Positions 12,412 to 59,065 of a DNA stretch of 64,000 nt are shown here, piece by piece. Position numbers and translations under genes: made by a program. The first letter of the stretch is position 1. Each line of letters opens with the position of its first letter. Location: assembly GCA_020432165.1 (NCBI GenBank), contig JAGQGU010000006.1, positions 62,001 through 126,000 on the forward strand, in the 5' to 3' direction. The notes beneath the pieces were generated by a model. The model worked only from the letters and a program-made list of their open reading frames with translations. It had not been told where the DNA came from and searched no databases. Origin of the DNA: Thermomicrobiales bacterium (lineage in GTDB: Bacteria; Chloroflexota; Chloroflexia; Thermomicrobiales; UBA6265).

Positions 12412-12446
12412 ACTGGAGTGTTCGGAGGGAAGATTCTCCACCAGTA

Positions 12447-12469
12447 GCATCGCACTTTATGTGCGGTGC
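12447..12469. terminator. Terminator-like hairpin, repeated at 40.1 kb
   Basis: Arms GCATCGCAC (12447-12455) and GTGCGGTGC (12461-12469) with loop TTTAT; one G-T pair. It lies 35 bases after the dipeptidase stop. The same hairpin (GCACCGCAC, TTTAT, GTGCGGTGC) follows patB at 40.1 kb, where it is split by an inserted element. No T-run follows, so termination strength is uncertain. Confidence 0.6.
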
Positions 12470-12499: not shown

Positions 12500-12647
12500 C
12501 GGGGCAGGTGGCGGAGTTGACCATATTCGCCGGGTATAAAACCCGGCGCTACCAACCCGGGCAACTCGCCGCGACGGAACTTCGCTGGCGAGGGACGGGG
12601 TCTACTTTTCAGTGCGCGATCTCCCCGGGGGCATTTTCTCGAGACGG
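12500..12647. repeat. Degenerate copy of the 40.1-kb transposase-less element
   Basis: Shares blocks with the element at 40125-40373: GGTGGCGGAGTTGAC (12507-12521), ACCCGGGCAACTCGCC with GACGG, GCTGGCGAGGGACGGGGTCTAC (about 12555-12605, which also matches the left half of the other element in reverse complement), and an end TTTTCTCGAGACGG (12634-12647) that is 12 of 14 identical to that element's right terminal repeat. An internal hairpin CGCCGGGT/ACCCGGCG is at 12528-12548. It abuts the S9 peptidase stop. The left end is not clear. Confidence 0.5.
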
Positions 12648-38776: not shown

Positions 38777-38945
38777 GACGATGTCCTTTCTGATTACTGT
38801 TTATCTGCATATATGACGCTCGAAGGGGCATGTGCGTTTCACTGGCACGAGGTTTTGGGCAGCGATTTCGGCAGGTGTTCACCAATTGGCAAACCTCTGC
38901 CATAATGCCAGCAATCAGATTATCTATCGAGAAAGGGAGCACGCA

Positions 38946-40109
38946 ATGGTTGTGAATTTCGATGAGATTACTGCCGAGAGTATGGCCGGCACGCACGGTG
39001 CCAAGTGGACCACCTGGCCGGACTGTATTGGGGCCTTCGTGGCGGAGATGGATTTCGGCACGGCTCCGGCAGTGAAGGATGCATTGAAGGAAGTGGTGGA
39101 CGCTGGCTACTTCGGCTATTTGCCGAAGCAGGAGGACGATCACCTGATTGATGCTCTCTGCAAGTGGTATGGTCGTCACACCGACTGGAACGTCTCGCCC
39201 GATATGGTGCGATCGATGCCGGATGTGCTCACCGGCATGGAGATTGTGCTCACGCGCTTTTCGCCAAAGGGTGGCAAGGTCATTCTACCGACGCCAGCCT
39301 ATATGCCCTTTGTCTTCCTGCCCACGGTTCTCGGACGGGAGATCATTGAGGTGCCGATGCTGCAGACCGGCTATGGCTGGGAGTATGATTACGCCGCGAT
39401 CGATCAGGCTTTCCAGGATGGCGGAGAGGTGCTGATCGTCTGCAATCCCTACAATCCCATTGGCAAGGTCCACTCGGCGGAAGAGATGGCAAAGCTTGGC
39501 GAGATTGTGGATCGGTATGATGGTCGGGTCTTCTCTGACGAGATTCACGCCCCGCTTGTCTATAGCGGTCAACGTCACATTCCCTATGCCTCAGTGAACG
39601 AGGTAAACGCCAAGCACACGATCACATCGATCGCGGCCAGCAAGGCGTGGAATCTGCCGGGGCTTAAGTGTGCCCAGATCGTGCTCTCCAATCCAGATGA
39701 TATCGACAACTGGCAGACCAGCGGCGCAGCCTGGCGCGCACATGGTGCGTCCGGACTCGGTGTTGTCGCGAGCGCTGCCGCCTATAACGATGGTGAAGAC
39801 TGGTTGAATGATGTTTTGGCCTATCTCGAGGGTAATCGTGATGCGCTGGCCGTCCTGATCGAGGAGCATCTGCCCGGTGTGAAGATGATCAAGCCACAGG
39901 GTACCTACCTCGCCTGGCTCGATTTCACTGAGACCAAGGTGCCGGAGGATGTTGCGACCTTCTTCCGCGAGCACGCCCAGGTTGCCATCACCGATGGCTC
40001 TGCCTGTGGTGAGGTGGGCAAGCGTCACGTCCGCTTCAACTTTGCCCTCGCGCGTCCCGTGATGACCGAAGCCATCGCCCGCATGGGCAAGGCTATGGCA
40101 GACCTGTAG
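38946..40109 (+). CDS. PatB/MalY-type PLP-dependent C-S lyase
   Basis: 387 residues from ATG 38946, after AAAGGGAG; the open frame extends 38 codons upstream without family-like sequence. Fold-type I aminotransferase-like enzyme of the PatB/MalY (cystathionine beta-lyase) group: VAEMDFGTAPAVKDAL near the start, YGYLP-like FGYLPKQE, CNPYNPIGKVHSAEEM, SDEIHAPLVYSGQRHIP, PLP lysine K233 in ASKAWNLPGLK. Conserved Arg in KRHVRFNFA. It probably releases sulfide or thiols plus pyruvate and ammonia from cystathionine or cysteine conjugates. The hairpin that follows begins at the stop codon and is interrupted by an inserted element. Confidence 0.9.
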   Translation: MVVNFDEITAESMAGTHGAKWTTWPDCIGAFVAEMDFGTAPAVKDALKEVVDAGYFGYLPKQEDDHLIDALCKWYGRHTDWNVSPDMVRSMPDVLTGMEIVLTRFSPKGGKVILPTPAYMPFVFLPTVLGREIIEVPMLQTGYGWEYDYAAIDQAFQDGGEVLIVCNPYNPIGKVHSAEEMAKLGEIVDRYDGRVFSDEIHAPLVYSGQRHIPYASVNEVNAKHTITSIAASKAWNLPGLKCAQIVLSNPDDIDNWQTSGAAWRAHGASGLGVVASAAAYNDGEDWLNDVLAYLEGNRDALAVLIEEHLPGVKMIKPQGTYLAWLDFTETKVPEDVATFFREHAQVAITDGSACGEVGKRHVRFNFALARPVMTEAIARMGKAMADL

Positions 40110-40124
40110 CACCGCACTTTATGT
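40109..40124. repeat. Left half of interrupted hairpin plus 9-bp duplication
   Basis: GCACCGCAC (40109-40117) is the left arm of the hairpin that is intact at 12447-12469. The bases ACTTTATGT (40116-40124) form the left target duplication of the inserted element; the right copy is at 40374-40382. Confidence 0.8.
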
Positions 40125-40373
40125 CATGCGTTCTGAGAAAATACTCCTCAAGAAGATGGCACGGCTAGAGGTAGACCCGCTCCTCGCCAGCGACGGTACG
40201 TCGCGGCGAGTTGGGCGGGTTCAAGTAGCCGTTCTGCGCGGAATTCTGGAACGGGTGGCGGAATTGACGTCCATCAAATACTGGAACCCGGGCAACTCGC
40301 GCAGCTTCGCTGCTGCGAGGCCCGAGTCTACCCTGTCACTGCATCATCGCTAACCATTTTCTCGGTACGGATG
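40125..40373. mobile_element. 249-bp transposase-less element with TIRs
   Basis: Begins CATGCGTTCTGAGAAAA (40125-40141) and ends TTTTCTCGGTACGGATG (40357-40373); the ends are inverted repeats with 14 of 17 identities. It is flanked by exact 9-base direct repeats ACTTTATGT. No open frame for a transposase. Inside are matching left and right halves with GCTCCTCGCCAGCGACGG and ACCCGGGCAACTCGC blocks, giving a partial palindrome. Features fit a miniature inverted-repeat element mobilised in trans; 9-base duplications are common for IS4/IS1-like transposases (family not determined). Confidence 0.8.
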
Positions 40374-40389
40374 ACTTTATGTGCGGTGC
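40374..40389. repeat. Right target duplication and right hairpin arm
   Basis: ACTTTATGT (40374-40382) is the second copy of the duplicated target. GTGCGGTGC (40381-40389) restores the right arm of the hairpin whose left arm is at 40109-40117. Removing the element and one duplicate rebuilds a perfect 9-pair hairpin with loop TTTAT. Confidence 0.8.
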
Positions 40390-40416
40390 CCCACTTGCAT
40401 ATACGGTGTCAATGCC

Positions 40417-40458
40417 GATGAAACGAGCCCAGGCTGTTTGGCCTGGGCTCGTTTCATC
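40417..40458. terminator. Strong bidirectional terminator
   Basis: Perfect 18-pair stem, GATGAAACGAGCCCAGGC (40417-40434) and GCCTGGGCTCGTTTCATC (40441-40458), loop TGTTTG. It lies a few bases after the stop of the MFS gene at 40465 (minus strand) and also closes the patB unit from the other side. Confidence 0.8.
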
Positions 40459-40464
40459 GCGCAA

Positions 40465-41661
40465 CTACAGTATATCTGCGGGTTTTGGCGTGTCTCCTCG
40501 CACCAGAACCATCTGTGTTGCGAGCAACAACATGACGCCAAGCACCATGATCACCGGAATGATCGCGAATCCTGCCCGGTCAGCCAACCAACCCGAGATG
40601 AATGGCAGAACCGAGAAGGCGATCGTCGATGCGCTCACCATGTATCCGACCGCGTGCTGGCTGACCGCCGGACCAAACCGATTGGCAGTGATGGTCATTG
40701 CAATCGGGAAGATGCTGGCGATGCCGACACCGATGAGCGCGATACCGACAATGGACAGCGGCAAGGAGGGTGGAATCATTGCCAATGCACCAGCCAGGAC
40801 AACGGCGGTCGATACTCGCTGGATGCGGATCGGTGTCGCATTCGGCCAGATGATAGGAATCAATATGCGTCCACCAGTGAGGCCGATCCAGTAAAGCGCA
40901 ACACCGAGAGCAGCCTTGCTGGTGCTGACGTCGAAGCGATTGACCAGGATTGAGGCCGTCCATAGCGATGCCAGACACTCGATCACCGCCCCGCCCATCA
41001 TCATGAGTAGGCTGAGTTGTACTCGAGGCATGCGCAGCACCTGGGCTCCGCTAACGGCCGTTGACTGTTCGTCGTGGTGTGATTCCTCGGCGTCGGGATC
41101 CGCGGCCCAGTGACCGCGGGTGACCACAAAGATCAGCGCCATGATCCAGATGATGAAAGCCACGGAGGCATATCCCCACCGCCAGCTCTGGCCCATTCCG
41201 AAGATGATCGCCATCAGGAAAGGACCAACCAGCGCCCCGACACCATAGAAGGCATGCAGCCAGCTCATATACCGCGGTGGCAGGTTTTGCGCGGCAAAGA
41301 GGTTGAGCGCAGCATCGATGGCACCGCTACCGCTGGCGATCAACGCCACGGCCGGGATGAGGAACCAGAAGTTTGGCGAAAGCGCATACCAGGTTAGCCC
41401 CGTGCCTACCAGGATAGTGCTATAGATCAGGAGCATGCCTGTTCCGATCCGATGGAGGATCGTTCCCAGCAACGCGCTACTGAGCATATAGGCCAATGCG
41501 CCCGGTATATTGAGGATGCCAACGTAGGCGTTGGGAACGCCGAATTCTATCCGTAAATCTGGCCAGGATGTGCCGCCGAGGGCATCGGGCAAGCCAATAC
41601 TGACGAACGCCGCGAAGACCAGAACGATCATCGCCGCGGAGACGTTTTGTTGTGTTTTCAT
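40465..41661 (-). CDS. MFS transporter, downstream copy
   Basis: 398 residues with twelve predicted membrane segments. Major facilitator of the FucP/YfkF-like sugar or drug group: start SAAMIVLVFAAFVSIGLPDALGGTSWPDLRIEF, second-half PILGALTIP-type helix, and motif ASGSGAIDAALNLFAAQNLPPRYMSWLHAFYGVGALVGPFLM. Loop 6-7 is charged (DPDAEESHHDEQ). Substrate unknown. It is the tandem paralog of the next gene, two bases downstream of it, so they form one transcript. Confidence 0.85.
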   Translation of the reverse strand: MKTQQNVSAAMIVLVFAAFVSIGLPDALGGTSWPDLRIEFGVPNAYVGILNIPGALAYMLSSALLGTILHRIGTGMLLIYSTILVGTGLTWYALSPNFWFLIPAVALIASGSGAIDAALNLFAAQNLPPRYMSWLHAFYGVGALVGPFLMAIIFGMGQSWRWGYASVAFIIWIMALIFVVTRGHWAADPDAEESHHDEQSTAVSGAQVLRMPRVQLSLLMMMGGAVIECLASLWTASILVNRFDVSTSKAALGVALYWIGLTGGRILIPIIWPNATPIRIQRVSTAVVLAGALAMIPPSLPLSIVGIALIGVGIASIFPIAMTITANRFGPAVSQHAVGYMVSASTIAFSVLPFISGWLADRAGFAIIPVIMVLGVMLLLATQMVLVRGDTPKPADIL

Positions 41662-55623: not shown

Positions 55624-55694
55624 CAACTGGGCACACATTGACGCCCGAGATACCAACACTCTATGCTGTGCTTGTTCTGGTTCGCCACCACTAG

Positions 55695-55880
55695 ATGTTG
55701 TGGTAGCGACGAAAGAAGGGAATCCGGTGCAAATCCGGAGCCGCCCCGCGACGGTAATGTGGGAACAACGCTCGTACGTATGCCACTGATCGGCGAGTCC
55801 GATTGGGAAGGCTGCGAGCCGAGGCCGCCGAGTTCACTCGGAGAGACCCCAAAGCCCGGAGACCTGCCGAACCACATGGC
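55695..55880 (+). ncRNA. Cobalamin (adenosylcobalamin) riboswitch
   Basis: Conserved blocks in order: GGGAATCCGGTGCAAATCCGGAGCCG (about 55718-55743, P3/P4 core), GCCCCGCGACGGTAA, GCCACTG (55782-55788), GGGAAGGC (55805-55812), and the B12 box AAAGCCCGGAGACCTGCC (55851-55868). TGTGGT (55699-55704) and ACCACA (55871-55876) form closing helix P1. It precedes nrdA by about 175 bases. High B12 should turn the operon off, so this B12-independent enzyme is made when the cofactor is short. Confidence 0.92.
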
Positions 55881-56008
55881 GTATCGCCGTGTGCTGAACC
55901 ATCGATCCTCGAGGGCGGGATCGTGGCTTTGCGCTTTTCGGCGACCCGATTGGCGTACGCCACTTTCTATACCCCAGATCAAACCAGGTTCAGGGCAGCA
56001 GGGGTGAC

Positions 56009-56053: not shown

Positions 56054-59000
56054 ATGACCGATGTGCTGAATGCCATTGCTATAACAACGGTGCGCAAACG
56101 CGATGGCCGAGTGGTACCCTACACGCGTGACAGGATTGCGCACGCGATCGAAATGGCGTGGCGCGCCGAGCTGGGTGTCCCATTCCCGGATGTGATGGAT
56201 GCTGGCGAAGCTCGTCGCATCGAAGCCGTGGCCGACGCTGTTGAAGCGCAGCTTCCGGCCATTGTCGATGCCGACAACGCTGTTGATGTGGAAAGCATTC
56301 AGGACATCGTCGAGCAGCAACTCATGATTGCTGGCGCGCATACCGTTGCTCGTCGCTACATTCTCTATCGCGATGCCCGGGCGCGAGCTCGCCAGGGTGC
56401 GACCATTCGGTTGATCGACCAGGATGGCACCGAGGTGCTCGTCAATCGGGCCGTAATTCGCGAATGGCTGGAGGATGCTGCCGGCACAATTGGAGCCGAG
56501 ATCGATCGCGACGATATTGAGCGCGAAGTGATGGCGAGCATCCGGGATGGCATGAAGCTGGCCGAGCTTGATCGCGCCATTGTTCTGGCCGGTCGTGCCC
56601 GTATCGAACGCAGGCTGGTCTATGGCACATTCACCGCGCGGGCACTCTTGCGCACGATCTACTCGGATGTCGTGGGCAAGCGTGTGAATGTGCGTGATGC
56701 CGAGCATTTCTACGCCGAGACCTTTGTGCGCAATATCCCCTTTGGCGTAGAGAATGATCTCCTGACACCAGAGTTGCTGAAGTTCAACCTCCCCAGATTG
56801 GCGGCGGCCCTCAAACCTGAGCGTGATCTCAAGTTCCGCTATCTTGGTCTGCAGACGCTCTTCGATCGTTATCTCATCCACCACAAACAGCAGCGAATCG
56901 AATTGCCGCAAGCCTTCTGGATGCGGGTGGCGATGGGGCTGGCCCTCGCCGAAACACCTGATCAGCGTGATGATCGTGCCATTGAGTTTTACGAAATGCT
57001 CAGCACATTCCGTGTCTGTAGCAGCAGTCCGACCCTTTTCAATGCTGGTACGCGTCATCCGCAGCTCTCCAGTTGCTTCCTCACCAGTGTTGAGGACGAT
57101 CTCGCGCACATCTTCAAGTCTGTTTCCGATAATGCGCTCCTGAGCAAGTGGAGTGGGGGACTCGGGAACGACTGGACGAATGTTCGCGCCCTCGGTAGCC
57201 GTATTCATGGCACCAATGGTCAGAGCCAGGGAGTGGTGCCATTCCTCAAGGTTGTGAACGATGCCGCTGTCGCGGTCAATCAGGGTGGCAAGCGGAAGGG
57301 TGCGGTGGCCGCCTACCTGGAAGTGTGGCACGCGGATTTTCTTGAGTTCCTCGATCTCCGTAAGAACTCGGGCGATGATCGCCGCCGCACGCACGATATG
57401 CATACCGCGGCCTGGATTCCCGATCTCTTCATGGAGCGTGTGCAGGCTAACGGAAGTTGGACGCTCTTCAGCCCCAGCGATGTGTCGGATCTGCATCACC
57501 TCTATGGCGATGCTTTTCGGGCGAAGTACGAGGAGTACGAGCTCGCCGCCCAGGACGGAGCATTCCCGAATAGCCAGACGATGTCTGCAACCGATCTGTG
57601 GCGGCGCTTGCTCAGCGCCACCTTCGAGACGGGTCATCCATGGCTAACCTTCAAGGATCCGAGCAATCTCCGTAGTCCGCAGGATCACACCGGTGTGGTG
57701 CACAACAGCAATCTCTGCACGGAGATTCTCCTGAACACCAGCATTGACGAGGTTGCTGTCTGCAATCTGGCAAGCATCAACCTGCCGACGCATATGGTGA
57801 ATGGCCAACTCGATCGCGAGATGCTCGGCGAGTCCGTGGCCACCGCCATGCGCATGCTGGACAACGTGATCGATATCAACTTCTACCCGATTCCGGAAGC
57901 AGAGAATGCGAACCAGAAGCATCGTCCGGTTGGTCTGGGCATGATGGGCTTCCAGGATTGCCTGTGGCAATTGGGGGTCAGCTATGCCAGCCCGGAGGCG
58001 ATGCAGTTCGCTGATGAGAGCATGGAGTTGATTAGCTGGTACGCGATTATGGCCAGCGCCCTGCTCGCCGGCGAACGCGGAACCTATAGCAGCTTTGCTG
58101 GTAGCAAGTGGGATCGCGATATTCTCCCGATCGATTCGCTTGCGCTCGTCGATGCCCAGCGCGGAACGCCCGTCGAGGTGAATCGCGATACCAAGCTGGA
58201 CTGGCAGCCGGTACGAGATGCCATCCGCGAGCATGGCATGCGCAACAGCAATACGATGGCGATCGCCCCGACCGCGACTATTGCCAATATTCAGGGTGTT
58301 ACCCAGAGTATTGAGCCGCTCTTCACCAATCTCTTTGTGAAGAGCAACTTGAGCGGTGAGTTTACGATCGTGAACGAATATCTCATTGCCGATCTCGAGC
58401 AAGCAGGCCTCTGGGACGATGATATGCTCGCCGAGCTCAAATACTGGGATGGTTCCATCGCGGCTATCGAGCGGATTCCGGAGGAGCTGCGCCGTGCCTA
58501 CCCGACAGCCTTCGAGATCGAGCCGGAATGGTTGATCGAAGCGGCCGCACGGCGACAGAAGTGGATCGACCAGGGGCAGAGTTTGAACCTCTACATTGCC
58601 GAGCCGAACGGCAAGAGATTGAACGATATGTACATGCAGGCGTGGTTGAGCGGCCTCAAAACCACCTATTACCTGCGGAGTCGTGGTGCCACCCAGAACG
58701 AGAAAAGCACCATTGATATCAATCGTTTTGGTCTGCAACCACGCTGGATGAAGAACGCCAGTGCCAGCGCCCGCGTTGGTGTCGATCGCGCACCTGCCTC
58801 AGACGTAGCCCCGGGGTACCGCAGGTGGCAGTCCGCTGCCCTTACCCCCGGGGAACGGGACGAGATGTCATCCCGAGGTTCTTCGGCTGCGCCCCAGAAT
58901 GACACTGAGATTTCATCTGGGCATGGTAGCGGGGCAGCTCGTCTGCCCCAGGCGGAGACAAGCTCCGCCGCTACCAATCGCGGGGCAGAGGTACTCCGGC

Positions 59001-59065
59001 AGGCACCGGAACTCAATCAAAACCTTCCCATCGAAGAGGAATTCGAATGCGAGGCCTGTCAATAG
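56054..59065 (+). CDS. nrdA: Ribonucleotide reductase large subunit, class I
   Basis: 1003 residues. N-terminal ATP-cone (VRKRDGRVVPYTRDRIAHAIEMAW, residues about 10-95) and a second, degenerate cone-like region (IRLIDQDGTEVLVNRAVIREWLED ..., 115-205). The ten-stranded barrel has redox Cys341 (SSCFL), thiyl-radical Cys555 in NLCTEI with Asn553 and Glu557, and Cys570 (VCNLASINL). The C-terminal shuttle pair is Cys999/Cys1002 (CEAC). Makes deoxynucleotides from ribonucleoside diphosphates with NrdB. The linker before the final cysteines (about 918-974) is encoded by a palindromic genomic repeat and is unlike the rest. RBS is hidden in a hairpin below the B12 riboswitch. Confidence 0.95.
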   Translation: MTDVLNAIAITTVRKRDGRVVPYTRDRIAHAIEMAWRAELGVPFPDVMDAGEARRIEAVADAVEAQLPAIVDADNAVDVESIQDIVEQQLMIAGAHTVARRYILYRDARARARQGATIRLIDQDGTEVLVNRAVIREWLEDAAGTIGAEIDRDDIEREVMASIRDGMKLAELDRAIVLAGRARIERRLVYGTFTARALLRTIYSDVVGKRVNVRDAEHFYAETFVRNIPFGVENDLLTPELLKFNLPRLAAALKPERDLKFRYLGLQTLFDRYLIHHKQQRIELPQAFWMRVAMGLALAETPDQRDDRAIEFYEMLSTFRVCSSSPTLFNAGTRHPQLSSCFLTSVEDDLAHIFKSVSDNALLSKWSGGLGNDWTNVRALGSRIHGTNGQSQGVVPFLKVVNDAAVAVNQGGKRKGAVAAYLEVWHADFLEFLDLRKNSGDDRRRTHDMHTAAWIPDLFMERVQANGSWTLFSPSDVSDLHHLYGDAFRAKYEEYELAAQDGAFPNSQTMSATDLWRRLLSATFETGHPWLTFKDPSNLRSPQDHTGVVHNSNLCTEILLNTSIDEVAVCNLASINLPTHMVNGQLDREMLGESVATAMRMLDNVIDINFYPIPEAENANQKHRPVGLGMMGFQDCLWQLGVSYASPEAMQFADESMELISWYAIMASALLAGERGTYSSFAGSKWDRDILPIDSLALVDAQRGTPVEVNRDTKLDWQPVRDAIREHGMRNSNTMAIAPTATIANIQGVTQSIEPLFTNLFVKSNLSGEFTIVNEYLIADLEQAGLWDDDMLAELKYWDGSIAAIERIPEELRRAYPTAFEIEPEWLIEAAARRQKWIDQGQSLNLYIAEPNGKRLNDMYMQAWLSGLKTTYYLRSRGATQNEKSTIDINRFGLQPRWMKNASASARVGVDRAPASDVAPGYRRWQSAALTPGERDEMSSRGSSAAPQNDTEISSGHGSGAARLPQAETSSAATNRGAEVLRQAPELNQNLPIEEEFECEACQ
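58805..58975 (+). repeat. In-frame palindromic repeat in nrdA linker
   Basis: First part 58805-58858: GTAGCC, CCCCGGGG (58809-58816), GGGTA/TACCC arms (58814-58818, 58844-58848) and inner GGCAG/CTGCC (58827-58831, 58836-58840). Last part 58925-58975: outer GGTAGCGG/CCGCTACC with GGGGCAG/CTGCCCC (58931-58949) and GGCGGAG/CTCCGCC (58951-58969), a three-way junction. The stretch reads through in frame and adds about 57 residues, rich in Ser, Ala and Gly. Confidence 0.75.

Follow-up and report, generated by a model that had tools for sequence, protein, structure and literature searches.

Elements of the IS3, IS110, IS4, IS256 and IS5 families are reported to target REPs (PMC1525189). Elements that choose REPs might read either a hairpin or a sequence. 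ISRm22 from Sinorhizobium meliloti (IS4 family, IS4Sa subgroup) inserts in REPs at the axis of palindromy (PMC1525189, PMC2266710), as the MITE described below does at 10 of 15 sites with a recognisable duplication. Unlike this MITE, ISRm22 is autonomous, generates 6-bp repeats and has a defined consensus site (PMC1525189), and the passages of PMC1525189 and PMC2266710 that deal with it state no fixed distance from a GTAG tag. The IS3 family elements ISPsy8, IS1397 and ISKpn1 are also REP-specific, ISPsy8 being inserted at the symmetry axis of the hairpin (PMC1525189); they carry IS3-family transposases and ISPsy8 makes 3-bp repeats, whereas the MITE has no gene and is bordered by duplications of 9–10 bp. 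REPs are targets too for elements of the IS110/IS1111 group such as IS621, ISPpu9 and ISPpu10 (PMC1525189). These elements rely on DEDD enzymes, in contrast with the terminal inverted repeats and long duplications of the MITE. In current work, the DEDD enzymes are found to be RNA-guided.

The tag of the REPs concerned here is that of the GTAG REPs, which are known in Chloroflexi and are exemplified by GTAG-23 of T. roseum and the GTAG-15 dimers of A. variabilis (PMC3733652). In some species, including T. roseum, REPs or REP dimers are found inside other palindromes or inverted sequences (PMC3733652). In T. roseum and A. variabilis, it is the REP that sits in a palindrome, whereas here a REP-carrying element sits in REPs, between duplications of 9–10 bp. 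IS1272 likewise targets inverted-repeat structures, but it takes the place of the inverted repeat and no duplication arises (PMC5678879). The IS231 subgroup, to which IS231A belongs, shares with the MITE its CAT ends and has duplications of similar length (10–12 bp) (PMC2266710). IS231A itself is autonomous, unlike the MITE. Its preferred target is GGG-N5-CCC, and we know of no REP or GTAG requirement for it. Among the matches listed for a search of mostly open literature, no title or abstract opening gives an account of such an element or of a fixed spacing from the tag.

The DNA that was analysed (the window, 64,000 nt of a Thermomicrobiales genome hereafter called the source genome) carries a 249-bp element whose limits and surroundings can be read directly from the letters (Table 1). 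Its inverted ends are identical at 15 of 18 positions; the initial annotation had matched the same ends one base short (14 of 17). As that annotation had seen, the element is flanked by exact 9-bp direct repeats (ACTTTATGT) and splits a hairpin in its loop, which is restored when the flanks are joined without the element (GTAGCACCGCACTTTATGTGCGGTGC). The longest overlapping ORF encodes 75 aa (40126–40353), too few for a transposase; the initial annotation had described the element as lacking a coding frame. Short length, terminal inverted repeats, lack of a transposase gene, multiple copies and target duplications (recognisable in 10 insertions of the source genome, inexact in four of them) are features of a MITE. 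The insertion is real and of an ordinary class; what is unusual is its address and its REP cargo.

Table 1. Features of the element, of its target and of unoccupied REPs, in window coordinates
Feature	Coordinates	Strand	Remarks
GTAG tag and outer left arm of target REP	40106..40115	+	GTAG 40106–40109, GCACCGC 40109–40115; read directly
Left duplication copy, ACTTTATGT	40116..40124	+	read directly
MITE body with ends, 249 bp	40125..40373	+	boundaries placed where identity between copies stops
Left terminal inverted repeat ('ACTC' end)	40125..40142	+	
Inner REP 1, GTAG and bulged hairpin	40171..40220	+	fold z -5.86
Inner REP 2, inverted, GTAG and bulged hairpin	40286..40331	-	fold z -4.52
Right terminal inverted repeat	40356..40373	-	
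Right duplication copy, ACTTTATGT	40374..40382	+	read directly
Outer right arm of target REP, GCGGTGC	40383..40389	+	read directly
Unoccupied REP resembling the target, GTAGCATCGC ACTTTATGT GCGGTGC	12444..12469	+	
Second unoccupied REP, CGCCGG GTATAAAAC CCGGCGCTAC	12528..12552	-	tag at right

The rejoined target site reads GTAGCACCGC-ACTTTATGT-GCGGTGC, its GTAG beginning 10 nt ahead of the left duplication and overlapping the stop codon (TAG, 40107–40109) of the upstream ORF 38832–40109. GTAG REPs are defined as palindromes of about 20–40 bp with GTAG at one end, present in many intergenic copies (PMC3733652), and the target has all of these characteristics. As it carries this tag and as a scan of 40050–40520 found no terminator-like site, it is a REP and not an intrinsic terminator, as had been proposed at first. 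The hairpin at 12447–12469, initially described as the same one, is indeed intact and empty but differs from the occupied site by one change (left arm GCATCGCAC in place of GCACCGCAC). The source genome thus holds both occupied and empty REP sites, and uninterrupted copies of the hairpin core GCACTTTATGTGC number 12 genome-wide, versus none for the reversed control. An allelic empty REP was not found in genomes G001 and G003, where the orthologous gene is followed, by eye, by a plain hairpin devoid of tagged REP or element. Near the second unoccupied REP, a fragment (12554–12605) is similar to the REP-bearing interior of the element, the ends of which are not seen there.

With the element as query, 67 matching pieces, many of them partial, are found in the 3.2-Mb source genome, and the search for the ends suggested by the initial annotation gives 33 matches with at most two mismatches versus one for the reversed control. 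In an alignment of eight copies, all turned the same way, internal pairwise identity is 0.54–0.95, and the resemblance does not extend beyond the ends: 10–70 bp outside, the identity is 0.15–0.43, except for one left-flank pair (L015/L020, 0.60). Such relatives with unrelated flanks establish a mobile family beyond chance. The ends are matched with at most one mismatch in 11 of 61 genomes, more than once only in the source genome (20) and G003 (21), and a stricter end pattern is found in three of the 61: the source genome, G003, assigned to the same genus, and G004, assigned to another genus of the same family. Two of the G004 copies have 197 and 198 bp and the third, read from two contigs, about 208 bp; they have the same kind of ends and tag spacing, and a 194-bp query from the third finds nothing similar in the 31 other genomes at an E value of 1e-4. 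The 39 insertions examined (18 in the source genome, 18 in G003 and three in G004) all come from genomes of this one Thermomicrobiales family. C9/C58 and L175/L176 were each taken, by inference, as one copy whose sides lie on separate contigs; the end of C105 and the start of C21 carry the same end type, hence are not one copy, and were counted as separate halves.

In a wider genome collection, the end pattern occurs in 13 stretches, four of them in the MAG ACE_NR_CHLO14 and nine in unrelated taxa. Of these nine, only L152 and L154 have an opposite end with three mismatches within 4 kb, and both were discarded as autonomous elements since, by eye, their longer ORFs do not encode transposases. 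Viral contigs give 0 and 8 matches to two end patterns, none of which is accompanied within 4 kb by an opposite end with up to three mismatches.

A duplication is recognisable in 15 insertions, 10 from the source genome (L013, which is the window copy, L014, L015, L017, L018, L020, L021, L026, L046 and C9/C58), three from G003 (L131, L138 and L146) and two from G004 (L178 and L175/L176). Inexact ones were kept (6/9 matching positions in L014, 8/9 in L018, 7/9 in both L021 and L026), and copies with unmatched flanks were left aside (L024, L027, seven two-ended G003 copies and L177 of G004), all of these being included in the junction count given below. The symmetry of each site was scored on six outer and two inner pairs about the duplication, with the axis placed within 1 bp, a site being called symmetric from 6/8 upwards. 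Ten of the 15 are symmetric (seven source copies, L131, L146 and L178). In the source genome, 7/10 compares with 2.8% of 7509 intergenic window positions (P = 1.6e-9, the coding mask of the null models being a hand-chosen set of 44 ORFs), which indicates recurrent insertion into palindromes of differing stems and loops.

The hairpins hit have varied stems and loops, and what unites most of them is a GTRG tag placed at an almost fixed distance. In 25 of 64 element/flank junctions, GTRG starts 19 nt (n = 12) or 20 nt (n = 13) from the edge of the element, every other distance being found at most three times. Given how often GTRG occurs between genes (118 of 15932 strand-positions, 0.7%), 0.94 such junctions would be expected, giving P = 4e-29 under independence for a rule that was noticed on these same data before being counted, several G003 and G004 sites having already been seen. 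The tag lies at 19 or 20 nt in 23 of the 39 insertions (13/18 in the source genome, 7/18 in G003, 3/3 in G004), that is in 20 of the 25 with both junctions visible and in three of the 14 with one; among the latter, only about half would be expected since the tag lies on one side only. Relative to the duplication, 12 of 15 insertions have the tag exactly 10 nt outside; L017 and L021 deviate by one nucleotide and L046 lacks it. Eight source copies have a one-sided GTRG, at 10 nt in seven of them (two of which also carry GTRG at 7) and at 11 nt in L017. In seven of these eight, the 'ACTC' end faces the tag, the exception being L026 (end type assigned by eye), which is only suggestive of a bias in insertion orientation.

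Some insertions depart from this spacing. The clear exception is L046 (G000:C63:323-605), which has an exact 10-bp duplication but no tag at 10 nt and adjoins the 3' foot of a strong GC-rich hairpin rather than a tagged REP. Altogether, 16 of the 39 insertions have no tag at 19 or 20 nt in their visible junctions; 11 of the 18 from G003 are in this case, including all eight one-ended ones, and seven of the 10 two-ended G003 copies have unmatched flanks. These unmatched flanks and untagged junctions may result from recombination between copies, as proposed for ISRm22 (PMC1525189), or from assembly errors.

The spacing might only be a by-product of the uniform geometry of REPs if the transposase recognised an extruded hairpin or the symmetric centre of a duplex, a reading that we consider possible though less likely than not. 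It would account for the 10 symmetric sites with their different stems and loops, and ISPsy8 and ISRm22 do insert at the symmetry axes of REPs (PMC1525189). Furthermore, among 118 distinct GTRG-tagged palindromes collected from own-genome loci and the window, 37 share the geometry of a tag followed by an 8-bp stem and a 5-nt loop, which places their axis exactly where the spacing predicts it (the next commonest distance being found in 10). As a consequence of this common geometry, tag and loop predict the same site and are confounded at most insertions, so that the evidence favouring the tag comes from three asymmetric sites and from further one-sided junctions in which the stretch of duplication length is not symmetric. 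The former (L020, L138 and L175/L176) score just 4/8 in symmetry, yet keep the spacing; several of the latter, e.g. L028, L025 and L177, keep it as well. Conversely, no symmetric insertion with a duplication has its tag more than 1 nt away from the expected place. The targeting of hairpin loops put forward in the initial annotation is thus borne out insofar as relatives recur in other hairpins, but most insertions share the distance to GTRG even at asymmetric sites, and it may be this distance rather than the loop that sets the insertion site. Since some sites fit the tag and not the hairpin, a ruler starting from the tag and recognition of the hairpin loop can be directly set against each other in a test, on REPs of differing stems and loops hit at a near-constant tag distance in two genera.

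Taken together, these data lead us to favour, with a probability of roughly 55%, a non-autonomous MITE moved by a DDE-type transposase into GTAG-tagged REPs, the REP setting the site. The process could be viewed as follows. The 18-bp ends would be recognized in trans by the transposase, most likely an IS4-like one, which would paste the MITE into a tagged REP and duplicate 9–10 bp. Strand transfer on the tag side would take place some 10 nt from where GTRG begins, a position that lies at the loop because the commonest REPs here consist of GTRG, an 8-bp stem and a 5-nt loop, and the MITE would usually be oriented so that its 'ACTC' end faces the tag. An inverted REP pair of the RAYT-associated kind, caught between the ends, would form its body. 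While the ends, the duplications, the family, its REP targets and the spacing are observed, we infer the class of the enzyme, movement in trans and a reading of the tag and not only of the hairpin; that the DDE transposase, or a RAYT–REP complex recruiting it, measures about 10 nt from GTRG, and does so with orientation, can be proposed tentatively. If so, a tag by which one mobile system is recognized would guide another to its insertion sites, the MITE itself having RAYT-type REPs inside.

The MITE has CAT ends and duplications of 9–10 bp, and CA or CAT ends with duplications of about 10 bp are characteristic of IS4 elements: CAT and 10–12 bp in the IS231 subgroup, CAT and 10 bp in ISH8, CA and 8–10 bp in IS4Sa (PMC2266710, Table 1). 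By eye, CATTCGTTCCGAGAAAAT differs at the inner conserved bases given in this table for IS231 (AA, TAA), ISH8 (T) and IS4Sa (T at 9). Ends and duplication length therefore suggest an IS4-like enzyme as a lead rather than as membership of the family, which is further marked by a DDE transposase bearing a YREK motif. A transposase gene located elsewhere and bearing the same ends, as predicted in the initial annotation, was not found with PF01609 (DDE_Tnp_1) or NF033592, a search that was confined to DDE_Tnp_1/IS4-type models. PF01609 has two matches in the source genome, none of them framed by the ends, and 15 rows in G001–G004, where the sole end-like match (four mismatches, at L198) does not frame a gene. 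NF033592 gives four rows in eight genomes (L164–L167), none framed, with scattered end-like matches at three mismatches (one in L165, three in L166, one in L167). A 1.67-kb copy from G003, L131, was rejected as an autonomous element, as it contains an IS3-like insertion (family assigned by eye) with its own inverted ends. This nested insertion (L131:1127-2400, on G003:C11) has orfA/orfB-like frames and 80% complementary ends (TGGAGTGTTCTGG..). At L151, a gene that looks IS110-like by eye adjoins a lone end and is not framed.

The body of the MITE consists of two inverted bulged hairpins, each starting with GTAG and folding better than shuffled sequences, and therefore has the organization of a REP pair or BIME, i.e. 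two REPs in opposite orientation. Six Y1 matches are found in the source genome. One of these genes, L091 (172 aa), is flanked by hairpins very similar to those of the element, inner REP 2 resembling those on either side of it, so that the body resembles a REP pair deprived of its gene and framed by other ends. L091 exceeds the cut-off of the Pfam model Y1_Tnp, whereas its score with the REP-associated tyrosine transposase (RAYT) model (64.5 bits) and that of L089 (67.5 bits) are below the cut-off of 80; GTAG REPs are in this sense accompanied by RAYT-like genes. L089 and L092 are surrounded by tagged hairpins, the other Y1 genes having variant feet. Around L089 (G000:C67), the repeated tagged hairpins read GTAG-CCCTGGGG-TTTAC-CCCCAGGG and similar, in a record that partly consists of N.

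Given these genes and the likeness of the body to the pair around L091, a RAYT-like Y1 enzyme might move the unit through its inner REPs, the duplication having another origin. We hold this to be very improbable, because the unit ends at inverted repeats about 45 bp outside the REPs, with duplications of 9–10 bp, and because the G004 copies share the ends but have a body that matches nothing in the 31 other genomes searched. To our knowledge, Y1 enzymes of the IS200/IS605 kind do not make duplications of 9–10 bp. Equally improbable is mere survival, with insertions outside REPs being lost and REPs being frequent between genes: tagged palindromes are indeed common (118 distinct ones in the own-genome sequence examined), but survival would not fix the position within the REP to 1–2 bp, and symmetric centres occupy 2.8% of intergenic window positions and GTRG 0.7% of intergenic strand-positions.

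Mobile DNA comes in layers here: a REP-carrying element lies inside REPs, and in one of its copies a third element interrupts the sequence directly behind GTAG. This other multicopy element breaks the assembly after GTAG at the ends of eight contigs (G000:C9, C19, C35, C54, C64, C82, C100 and C105; L095-L102). Its junction reads GTAG/TAACTGTCYTG, with 8/8 matches at contig ends; it is also found at the starts of C58 and C21 and at the ends of C52 and C32, and the junction on its opposite side appears to read ..CCAGAATAGACAAG/ACTCGGG. Some of its insertions lie within MITE copies (e.g. C9/C58) and others outside them, its body is absent from the assembly, and it is possibly Y1/IS200-like. Elsewhere in the window, a cobalamin riboswitch (55661–55885, 90.9 bits) is located upstream of ORF 56054–59065.
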